A DNA stretch of 64,000 nucleotides from Gemmiger sp. An194 (GTDB taxonomy: Bacteria > Bacillota > Clostridia > Oscillospirales > Ruminococcaceae), in the NCBI RefSeq assembly GCF_002160145.1, contig NZ_NFKA01000006.1:62001-126000 (forward strand), in the 5' to 3' direction. How positions within the stretch are numbered: the first letter of the stretch is position 1; each line of letters opens with the position of its first letter. Position numbers and translations under genes: made by a program. The notes below the pieces were generated by a model. That model was not told where the DNA came from. It saw only the letters and a list, made by a program, of their open reading frames with translations, and made no database searches. Positions 13,091-60,057 of this stretch are shown piece by piece.

Positions 13091-13978
13091 TTAGTATTTG
13101 ATCTTTGCGTCGGCCACGCGCTTCAGGTGTTCGCCGTAGGGGCTCTTGCCGTAGCGCTGGGCGCTTTCCAGCAGCTTCTCCTTGGTGATCCAGCCGTTCC
13201 TGTAGGCGATCTCCTCGGGGGCGCTGATCTTGATGCCCTGGCGCTTTTCCACCATACGCACGAAGTCGGCGGCTTCCACCAGGCTGTCCATCGTGCCGGT
13301 ATCCAGCCAGGCAAAGCCACGGCCCAGCAGCTGCACGTCCAGCTTGCTTTCCTCCAGATACATGGCGTTCAGGGTGGTGATCTCCAGTTCGCCCCGGGCG
13401 CTGGGCTTCACCTGCTTGGCCTGAGCGCTGACCCGGTTGTCGTAGAAGTACAGACCGGTGATGGCGTAGTTGGACTTGGGCTGCGCGGGTTTCTCCTCCA
13501 CGCTGATGACCCGGCCATTCTCATCGAATTCCACAATGCCGAACCGCTCGGGGTCGTTCACGTAGTAGCCGAACACGGTGGCGCGGCCGTTTTCCTCGGC
13601 GTTCTTCACGGCGGCCTTCAGGATGCGGGAGAAGCCGTTGCCGTAGAAGATGTTATCGCCCAGGATCATGGCGCAGCAATCGTCGCCGATGAACTCCTCA
13701 CCCAGCAGGAAGGCCTGAGCCAGGCCGTCCGGGCTGGGCTGGACCTTGTAGGACAGATGCACGCCGTACTGGCTGCCGTCACCCAGCAGGTTCTCGAAGC
13801 GGGGGGTATCCTCCGGGGTGGAGATGATCAGGATGTCCTGGATGCCGGCCAGCATCAGCGTGGACAGGGGGTAGTAGATCATGGGTTTGTCGTACACCGG
13901 CAGCAGCTGCTTGCTGGTGACCATGGTGAGCGGATACAGGCGAGTGCCCGCACCGCCGGCAAGGATAATACCTTTCAT
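13091..13978 (-). CDS. rfbA: Glucose-1-phosphate thymidylyltransferase
   Basis: A 295-residue nucleotidyltransferase that makes dTDP-glucose from dTTP and glucose-1-phosphate, the first step of the rhamnose route. The signature [11 protein letters not shown] is at about 8-18, with the following [17 protein letters not shown] diagnostic for the RmlA group. The length matches the family. It is the first gene of the rfbA-rfbD-rfbB block; upstream lies about 545 bp of repeat DNA, then the glycosyltransferase on the same strand. Confidence 0.96.
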
Positions 13979-14523
13979 TAGCGTTACGCTCCTTTTTTGC
14001 CCGGTGTTCGCCGGGGTATGATATAAAAAATTTGCGCAGCTTAATACAAAGCGGAGCTACAGCCGCTATCAACTTTTTTAGCGGACTCGACCGGTAGTCG
14101 GGTCCAATACGCAGTCGCGGATGCACCGGGCTTTCCTCAGCGACGACCGCTGACTGCCTTGGCGGACTCGACTTTTTTCCGGACTCGACCGGAAGTTATG
14201 TCTGATCCGCAAACCCACCGCACCGGGCTTTCCTCAGCAAATACCGCTGGCCCCCTTAGGGGTGCAGCCCATGAGCCGGGTGGAATTGAAATTTGTTTTT
14301 TCGTCAAGCACCGTTGCACGTTTTACCAATGCAACCCGGCCAACGGTCAAGCCCATTAAAAAGGCCGCTGGAGGTTTTCGCTGAGGAAAACCCGGTGCTT
14401 ATTATTTTGCCAGCCGGACTCAGCCAACGGTCGAGTCCGTTAAAAAGGCCGCTGGAGGTTTTCGCTGAGGAAAACCCGGTACTTATTATTTTGCCAGCCG
14501 GACTCAGCCAACGGTCGAGTCCG
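13979..14523. repeat. Block of structured repeats between rfbA and the glycosyltransferase
   Basis: No gene is visible in these 545 bp. The block contains two near-identical 84-bp units on the right (listed separately) and degenerate inverted copies on the left. The core ACCGGGTTTTCCTCAGC (minus strand) recurs on the plus strand, with one change, at about 14124 and 14221. CGGACTCGACCGG recurs near 14082 and 14180 in the opposite orientation to the copies near 14420 and 14504. Each unit can fold, since GGACTC pairs with GAGTCC and GGTTTTC with GAAAACC. Confidence 0.85.
14363..14446 (-). repeat. 84-bp repeat unit, copy 1
   Basis: An 84-bp unit directly repeated at 14447-14530, with a single difference noticed (GTGCTT versus GTACTT). 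It begins with GGCCGCTGGAGG on the plus strand and ends in CGAGTCCGTTAAAAA. Confidence 0.9.
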
Positions 14524-14530
14524 TTAAAAA
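14447..14530 (-). repeat. 84-bp repeat unit, copy 2 (overlaps the glycosyltransferase stop)
   Basis: The second copy of the 84-bp unit. Its CCGTTAAAAA end supplies the TAA stop of the glycosyltransferase gene at 14524-14526, so the repeat array abuts, and may have trimmed, that gene. Confidence 0.9.
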
Positions 14531-15291
14531 AATCGCCAGCCCCATTTGTTAAAGTAGCGGCCCATGCTCTTGAGCTGCTGCAAAAAGGGCTTCAGGCTCT
14601 TGTTGGGGGCCCGGTGCCAGGCGTGGTAGGCGGTGAACTGGGGCAGATAATACACAAATCCCTTCTGCCGGGCCTTCTGGGTGATGTCCGCGTCCTCCAC
14701 ATACATGAAGTAGCCCTCGTCAAACCCGCCGATGGCCTTGTACACACTGGTACGCATGCAGAAAAAGCTGCCGGTGCAGAACTCGATGGCCGTGGGCACG
14801 CTCAGGTCCTCGTCCAGCATGGCGTATCGGTCGCCGAATTTTTTCAGCCCCGGCACCCCCTGCCGCGCCGCAAGCCCCAGAATGTTGGGCTTGCGCTTGG
14901 GCAGAACCTGCACCCGCCCATCCGGGAAGAGCAGCTTCGGGGTGGCCATCACCACATCCGGGTGGCCGTCCAACCAGTCGCAGATGGCGGGCAACACGTT
15001 GTCATCAATGAAAATATCCGGGTTCAGCACAAAGTGATATTCACTGTCCAGCAGCGGAAGCACCTGATTGTGCCCCTTGCCGAAGCCCAGATTCTCCGGC
15101 AGCCGGATAACCTTCACGTTTTCAGGAAAGCCCTGCCGCTCCAGCGTTTCGCCGGTTCCGTCCGGGCTGGCGTTGTCCACCAGATAAACTGTCAGCGCAC
15201 AGTCCTTCGTGTATTTCAGCAGCGATTCCACCGCCCGGATCACCTCGTCGGCTCCGTTATAGCTCACGATGCAGGCGCTGATCTTCCTCAT
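14524..15291 (-). CDS. Glycosyltransferase family 2 (probable rhamnosyltransferase)
   Basis: A 255-residue GT-A fold enzyme. The N-terminus ISACIVSYNGADEV is typical of family 2, VDNASPDGT lies near 44 and the metal-binding region LNPDIFID near 93. GT2 enzymes of this form add rhamnose or similar sugars to polysaccharide, which fits the rfb genes downstream. The ATG at 15291 follows GGAGG with 8-bp spacing; an upstream TTG start is possible but less likely. The stop codon lies inside a repeat unit, so the natural C-terminus may have been altered. Confidence 0.88.
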   Translation of the reverse strand: MRKISACIVSYNGADEVIRAVESLLKYTKDCALTVYLVDNASPDGTGETLERQGFPENVKVIRLPENLGFGKGHNQVLPLLDSEYHFVLNPDIFIDDNVLPAICDWLDGHPDVVMATPKLLFPDGRVQVLPKRKPNILGLAARQGVPGLKKFGDRYAMLDEDLSVPTAIEFCTGSFFCMRTSVYKAIGGFDEGYFMYVEDADITQKARQKGFVYYLPQFTAYHAWHRAPNKSLKPFLQQLKSMGRYFNKWGWRFF

Positions 15292-15324
15292 TGGGGCATC
15301 CTCCAAGCGTAAATAGTCTATTTT

Positions 15325-24534: not shown

Positions 24535-24610
24535 TGGTGCCTCCGATCGGAATCGAACCAATGACACGGGGATTTTCAGTCCCCTGCTCTACCAACTGAG
24601 CTACAGAGGC
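24535..24610 (-). tRNA. tRNA-Phe (GAA)
   Basis: A 76-nt gene with encoded CCA. The acceptor stem GCCTCTG/CGGAGGC, the GAA anticodon in the ACTGAAAAT loop and the GGTTCGATTCC T arm are visible. It is the last of four tRNAs in one transcript. Confidence 0.96.
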
Positions 24611-24616
24611 GTTTTT

Positions 24617-24692
24617 TGGTGGAAGTTACAGGGCTCGAACCTGTGACCCTCTGCTTGTAAGGCAGATGCTCTCCCAGCTGAGCTAAACTTCC
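24617..24692 (-). tRNA. tRNA-Val (TAC)
   Basis: A 76-nt gene with encoded CCA. The acceptor GGAAGTT/AACTTCC, the anticodon loop CTTACAA and the T arm GGTTCGAGCC are visible. Third in the operon. Confidence 0.96.
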
Positions 24693-24703
24693 AGACAAAA
24701 AAA

Positions 24704-24779
24704 TGGAGCGGCTTACGAGGCTCGAACTCGCTACCTCCACCTTGGCAAGGTGGCGCTCTACCAGATGAGCTAAAGCCGC
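24704..24779 (-). tRNA. tRNA-Gly (GCC)
   Basis: A 76-nt gene with encoded CCA. The acceptor GCGGCTT/AAGCCGC, the anticodon loop TTGCCAA and the T arm AGTTCGAGCC are visible. Second in the operon. Confidence 0.96.
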
Positions 24780-24787
24780 TTATATAA

Positions 24788-24863
24788 TGGTCGGAGTGGC
24801 GGGATTCGAACCCACGGCATCCTGCTCCCAAAGCAGGCGCGCTACCAGCTGCGCTACACCCCG
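24788..24863 (-). tRNA. tRNA-Pro (TGG)
   Basis: A 76-nt gene with encoded CCA. The acceptor CGGGGTG/CACTCCG, the anticodon loop TTTGGGA and the T arm GGTTCGAATCC are visible. First in the operon. Confidence 0.96.
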
Positions 24864-59788: not shown

Positions 59789-59867
59789 CGGAAGTCTCTG
59801 TGCGCACCGCGAAGGAACGCGGCACGTTGCAGGCAGCCCCGGCCGGGCCGCCCCTTCGGTTTCCCTT

Positions 59868-60036
59868 GGATAGCGCTTCACGAAAAAACTTCGTGACAGT
59901 CCGGCGGATCTTCTCCGCCAGCCCAGGCAAGCGCACCCCAGACCGGGTTCGCTTCCTTCGGCGGTGTTTCCTTTCGGTGCGGCGGGGGTCTGCCCCGAAT
60001 GCCGCGCGCTACTCTTAAACACCGCGCCTCTATCAC
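59868..60036 (-). ncRNA. Lysine riboswitch (L box) aptamer
   Basis: On the minus strand the aptamer opens GATAGAGGCGCG, with TTAAGAGTA next, then GAAAGGAAACACCGCCGAAG, TGGGCTGGCGG, GGACTGTCACGAAG and the closing GCGCTATCC, which pairs with the opening GATAG to form P1. These are the conserved blocks of the L box in order. It controls the amino-acid transporter downstream through the terminator at 59751-59788. Confidence 0.92.
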
Positions 60037-60057
60037 AGCGATATGAATTTAGTTGCC

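Follow-up and report, generated by a model that had tools for sequence, protein, structure and literature searches.

The window examined in the present study is a 64,000-nt stretch of DNA that contains a rhamnose cluster, in which a family 2 glycosyltransferase gene is followed on the same strand by rfbA. The region between these genes is occupied by repeat units that face each other. The features of this region are as follows:

13091-13978, minus strand: rfbA, glucose-1-phosphate thymidylyltransferase (TIGR01207)
14075-14163, plus strand: degenerate unit 5' of rfbA, its own T-run left end included
14164-14262, plus strand: second degenerate unit, after a truncated unit start and a fresh T-run
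14321-14362, minus strand: partial, diverged unit (42 nt, 74% identical), the last of the minus-strand array
14363-14446, minus strand: glycosyltransferase-side unit 2, one base different from unit 1
14447-14530, minus strand: glycosyltransferase-side unit 1, whose T-run/AAC left end contains the stop codon of the gene (TAA, 14524-14526)
14524-15306, minus strand: family 2 glycosyltransferase (PF00535), its final codons rewritten by the array

The minus-strand array runs from 14530 to 14321 (two 84-bp units and the partial unit) opposite a plus-strand array from 14083 to 14259 (two degenerate units). An initial annotation of this DNA had claimed a tandem pair of 84-bp units with one difference, and this pair was read directly off the sequence at 14363-14446 and 14447-14530. 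The two degenerate inverse copies that it had placed between the glycosyltransferase and rfbA were recovered with the family profile and scored 72.3 bits (14083-14161) and 59.7 bits (14181-14259); with the same profile, the units of the minus strand mapped to 14357-14438 and 14441-14522. The search for the unit elsewhere in the same genome that had been proposed yielded 18 matches at E <= 0.001 besides the window, several of which are the two strands of one place. Given these further copies in the same genome, the repeats of the window are real and not due to chance.

The array belongs to a dispersed family, of which the window's genome has 10 arrays and five species of a single genus, which we take to be Fournierella in GTDB, together have 44, distributed over 13 loci. 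A sequence-only profile was applied to seven genomes of the genus (G000, the window's genome, to G006), and hits were retained at E <= 0.01. Six of the seven genomes had hits: 24 in the window's genome, 22 in G001, 23 in G002, 27 in G004 (Fournierella massiliensis), 9 in G006, and a single weak partial hit in G005 (88% complete). No hit was obtained in G003 (84% complete). The 39 stretches searched with the profile contained 106 hits in 45 groups, which became 105 hits in 44 arrays when one weak, isolated hit (L119, 16.9 bits) was dropped.

The units are 81-86 bp long and arranged head-to-tail (42 units from five species, 37 of which were used in the unit alignment). The information content of 80 full units revealed two conserved blocks, B1 (GGACYCGACCG) and B2 (GCACCGG.TTTYCTCAGC), a variable middle, and the end CTGCC.TTT. 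The left end of an array is mostly a T-run, after which GGACYCGACCG begins. A T-run of at least four within the 12 nt that precede the first unit was present in 39 of the 44 arrays, as against 4.4% of the 12-mers of the same DNA, arrays that share a locus not being independent in this count. A T-run of four was absent at lepA (four arrays) and dnaA (one array). By eye, T-runs also occur at junctions within older units, and the right ends of arrays break off at varying positions of the unit.

Matches were confined to the genus in the wider searches. A family-wide search of 197 genomes from 125 genera, the filters of which lose some weak matches, identified three genomes, all of the same genus, and none of the 194 genomes of 124 other genera. 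A DNA search of 61 genomes matched seven, again all of this genus; the matches of G003 and G005 were to the region upstream of rfbA and not to units. Among named genomes, the two-block pattern was found in 15 stretches, 13 of which are in Gemmiger sp. An50, Gemmiger sp. An87, F. massiliensis DSM 100451, and an uncultured Oscillospiraceae bin; the window's genome represents a further species of the genus besides these. The other two stretches are in one acidobacterial bin and one Rhodospirillaceae bin, and we take them for chance matches. No stretch with the two-block pattern was found in viral contigs, and plasmids gave no match to the repeat. The single phage record that matched, MT838046 (MT838046.1, L037), is filed as 'Bacteriophage sp.' and marked unverified. 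The contig is probably bacterial rather than phage DNA, since the start of rfbA (56 of 57 residues) lies on it and, as judged by eye, so does the end of a comparable glycosyltransferase; no unit was visible between these two gene ends. No account of the repeat family was found among the papers listed, in a literature short of most subscription journals.

The arrays occupy borders of genes. For 28 of the 44, the distance between the array start and the stop codon of a same-strand gene is 2-28 nt, and the loci concerned are lepA, fhs, nrdD, asnS, V-ATPase subunit D, a mannosyltransferase-like gene, cysS, dnaA, and the glycosyltransferase of the window. The remaining 16 stand upstream and antisense of remB (5), rfbA (5), and one unassigned gene of G004 (1), or near birA (5), where they follow a strong terminator-like hairpin (recognized by eye). 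Gene families were checked on one representative each, birA being checked only in the genome of the window. What adjoins the left end of an array is the 3' end of a gene, a 5' region, or a terminator-like hairpin, and the orientation to transcription varies, being sense at gene 3' ends and antisense before remB, rfbA, and the G004 gene. Only two of the 13 loci lie in the rhamnose cluster; 11 are outside it.

The glycosyltransferase of the window illustrates what such an insertion may do to a gene. The protein ends in ...KWGW[RK]LGC in all six relatives of the genus, whereas that of the window ends in ...KWGWRFF and reads into the T-run of the array. The claim that the array supplies the stop codon of this gene was thus confirmed: the relatives end in ...LGC*, and the window's ...FF* terminates at the TAA within the left end of the array. 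Because the glycosyltransferase ends of the relatives have no T-run, the T-run came with the inserted DNA. Among the seven genomes of the genus, only that of the window has an array at this 3' end, which provides an example of a repeat rewriting the C-terminus of a protein. A second gene end altered at an array is that of nrdD in F. massiliensis (G004, L121), which reads ...CGLS instead of ...CGCE.

A comparison of filled and empty sites indicated the history of the family. Nine loci are filled in every one of the close species G000, G001, G002, and G004, and no locus is filled in just two or three of these four. The weak members of the nine are V-ATPase D of G001, a single degenerate unit of 27.1 bits, and remB of G004 (39.8 bits), the latter being missing from our tabulation of full units. 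G006 is filled at four of the nine (asnS, rfbA, remB, and the terminator) as well as at dnaA, whereas neither fhs nor the V-ATPase D/mannosyltransferase pair has an array in this genome. Empty versions were seen at the four of the nine shared loci that were looked up in the outgroups, all in assemblies in which the locus is present: the lepA and nrdD sites are empty in G003, G005, and G006, the asnS site in G003 (asnS was not found in G005), and the rfbA-side site in G003 and G005. Species differ in how many full units they have at a given locus (2, 6, 2, and 1 at nrdD; 1, 1, 1, 2, and 3 at asnS). Arrays private to one species are those at the glycosyltransferase of the window, at cysS and one more locus in G004, and at dnaA in G006. 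Based on the shared filled loci and the empty sites, arrays probably entered some loci in the ancestor of the unit-bearing species and other loci later. By eye, no terminal inverted repeat or target duplication, the marks of a MITE, was apparent between filled sites and empty sites; the latter are diverged and may hide a short duplication. In G001 and G002 (L099 and L111), a G+C-rich insert of approximately 200 bp, near-identical by eye, lies between two units 5' of rfbA.

The same comparison bears on the facing layout of the window. Since the rfbA-side site is also filled in G001, G002, G004, and G006, the plus-strand units are the older ones; judged from these sites, the facing arrays are two separate insertions and not a single designed structure. 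In four species, a second facing pair separates V-ATPase D from the mannosyltransferase-like gene. The large structure that had been anticipated for this region was reproduced, with a predicted fold of z -10.3 for the window stretch and none of 100 shuffles as good; the fold lies this far beyond shuffles because the two groups of units are mutually inverted. For a single unit, the predicted fold is barely beyond shuffles (z -1.6 on one strand and -1.8 on the other). Two hairpins per unit, as annotated, were predicted in the full unit of the window; however, this pairing is not conserved across the family. RNAalifold gave 0 pairs on the 37 aligned units, and covariation in three helices named by hand was not above shuffles. 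We rejected a terminator in every unit, with two terminator-like sites in 13900-14620 (one inside a unit) versus 1.2 expected.

Resemblances to known RNAs were not convincing. The units of the window and of L092, L093, L094, and L098 gave no gathering-level match in Rfam, and overlaps in the window stretch, L091, L103, L107, and L118 were at the level of chance only (E up to 5). An RNase P origin of the GAGGAAAGYCCGG stretch was considered in eight comparisons (the consensus and three units, both strands) with the genome's own RNase P RNA. The best score of 25 was equalled by 2 of 200 shuffles, and a score of 23, which no shuffle equalled, was obtained for the consensus read on the opposite strand to that of the resemblance; we regard this origin as unconvincing. 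The GGTCGAGTCC of the unit, which we presume to resemble a tRNA T-arm, had no Rfam match.

The blocks of the unit are better kept than its other parts. In 70 reciprocal-best pairs of units from the same locus, B1 differed by 5.3%, B2 by 8.4%, the middle parts by 27.9 and 22.0%, and the end block by 13.7%, whereas the reference, fourfold sites of six flanking genes, differed by 16.1%. This comparison covered 83 units of at least 40 bits at the nine shared loci only (23 of the 106 hits, under 40 bits, were left out), and reciprocal-best pairing selects the most similar pairs, which favors well-kept units. When first units were paired by position regardless of score (66 pairs), B1 differed by 7.6%, B2 by 12.0%, the middles by 34.1 and 34.7%, the end block by 27.9%, and the flanking downstream DNA by 15.0%. 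The contrast is weaker in the positional pairs: B1 is still clearly below the neutral level and B2 only slightly. These values suggest, but do not prove, constraint on the blocks because the turnover of units from a common source may likewise keep them alike.

Taken from these comparisons, the family looks like an old mobile repeat and not a switch for sugar-coat genes. We consider it somewhat probable (approximately 55%) that the array is a member of a clade-specific interspersed repeat family that has spread as a non-autonomous mobile unit. The dispersed copies, the species-private arrays, the varying number of units, and the replaced last codons of the window's glycosyltransferase are consistent with this reading. 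Mobility is proposed because the same loci are empty or filled among relatives, and we infer movement itself from this presence and absence. We propose that the units would move via a putative enzyme acting in trans on B1 and B2, that insertions would be tolerated mainly where the coding sequence is spared and a stop codon is left or supplied, and that arrays may then lengthen or shorten by unequal recombination among tandem units. The lower divergence of the blocks relative to silent sites hints that old copies may also be useful to the host. Among the Y1 transposase and reverse transcriptase matches examined in the seven genomes, no mobilizing gene was tied to the units.

The best-known short interspersed repeats of bacteria are those of Proteobacteria, streptococci, and mycobacteria. 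Among them, the MIRUs of mycobacteria, a different phylum from the genus of the window, are tandem units of 40-100 bp at gene borders in variable number. The present family is similar: its 81-86 bp units stand in tandem at the borders of genes, with 28 of 44 arrays next to a stop codon, and their number differs among species. It differs from MIRUs, whose unit carries a small ORF coupled to the start codon of the following gene, in that the units have no constant reading frame (81-86 bp, n=42, not restricted to multiples of three) and the fixed end lies at stops and not at the following start. MIRUs are regarded as mobile. They are described as inserting at start codons (PMC12548453), whereas the arrays described here are mostly at stop codons, with others in antisense 5' regions. 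The BOX elements of Streptococcus pneumoniae are intergenic, consist of a variable number of tandem modules, and are described as having extensive secondary structure (PMC3049150). The intergenic position and the tandem modules in varying number are shared, whereas the extensive secondary structure contrasts with the absence of a conserved fold in our family. Judged by layout and not by sequence, boxA- or boxC-like end modules are also absent, the arrays being one unit repeated plus a partial unit. REP sequences need a hairpin and a guide tetranucleotide, and their enzymes bind subterminal hairpins (PMC6006769). Our family resembles REP, BIME, and REPIN in being dispersed and intergenic, and single-strand transposition is conceivable; however, it has no palindromic hairpin per copy (neither RNAalifold pairs in 37 units nor covariation in three helices), and no Y1 transposase gene is flanked by copies as in REP/BIME with RAYT. 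It also differs from CRISPR, where identical repeats alternate with unique spacers: inspected by eye, the variable middle is a part of every unit and occurs repeatedly within an array. The layout is nearest to MIRU and BOX and also to REP/BIME, and it agrees in full with none of them. We call the repeat a new family of an already known kind, short interspersed repeats. Its confinement to a single gut genus, at core genes and with both empty and filled sites, means that the spread and persistence of repeats may be studied in cultured commensals.

The main rival to a mobile repeat is a retained host function, which we regard as possible but rather doubtful. The blocks would then be recognized by a putative protein that binds DNA or RNA and acts in termination, mRNA stability, or nucleoid folding, and the arrays would be retained for this purpose. 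The nine loci filled in all four close species, with none in just two or three, are in line with such retention, as is the lower divergence of the blocks than of fourfold sites. However, the orientation of the arrays to transcription is not constant, pairing is not conserved, G003 has no units and G005 one weak partial hit, and G006 lacks units at lepA and nrdD and arrays at fhs and the V-ATPase D/mannosyltransferase pair.

The T-runs call for a reading of their own. A SINE-like retroposon or another element with a fixed T-run (A-tail), copied by an enzyme, may prefer gene ends, rewrite stops, and build tandem arrays; we regard this broad proposal as unlikely. In its narrower form, a SINE-like retroposon, the reverse-strand unit would have a terminal A-tail (...CGGTCGAGTCCGYTAAAAAA) that connects it to the target, with the far end variably cut, and a fixed tail at the target with a variably cut far end is the pattern of target-primed reverse transcription. 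The 39 T-runs at 44 left ends and those at junctions inside older units (by eye), the arrival of the window's T-run with the insert, as judged from the six relatives, and right ends that stop at differing unit positions (by eye) speak for this form. It is slightly less probable than the broad proposal. Head-to-tail arrays are atypical of retroposons, and no target duplication was seen. Reverse transcriptase matches occurred in four of the seven genomes, the unit-bearing G006 not being among them, and a link to these genes was not supported.

We assign a similarly low likelihood to a REP/BIME-like element that is moved as single-stranded DNA by an IS200-type or RAYT (Y1) transposase. In the genus, IS200-type elements stand directly after T-runs behind terminator-like hairpins in all four readable left flanks (by eye), which resemble the left flanks of units, and matches to IS200-type (Y1) transposases were obtained in all seven genomes (fragments only in G005). 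However, the unit has no conserved hairpin, and its consensus contains no GTAG-type guide by eye. A link to IS200-type elements was not supported: Y1 transposase genes and unit hits never lie on the same contig, and in G003 the transposase occurs without any unit. Examples of the IS200-type left flanks, with boundaries set by eye, are TTGTTAAC, TTTTAAC, and TTTGTAT (L085 in G001, L086 in G002, L083 in G003, and L087 in G006).

The initial annotation had suggested that polysaccharide genes may be swapped by recombination at the array. The glycosyltransferase of the window shares 248 of 260 residues with that of G001, 250 of 260 with G002, and 253 of 260 with G004 (95-97%); the values for G006 (227/274), G003 (221/265), and G005 (209/269) are from longer alignments that take in the reading frame upstream of the gene. 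The identity of rfbA is 274-285 of 295 residues, and 96-97% in G001, G002, and G004. The conserved gene pair and these identities disfavor swapping between species at the array. Although the array lies within a rhamnose cluster and its units are repeated across the genome, an exchange site is very improbable, since at the species level the same glycosyltransferase and rfbA adjoin in all seven genomes, with or without units, and all but two of the 13 loci lie elsewhere. Elsewhere in the window, a lysine riboswitch is present at 59863-60040 and a cluster of four tRNA genes at 24538-24863, both on the minus strand.
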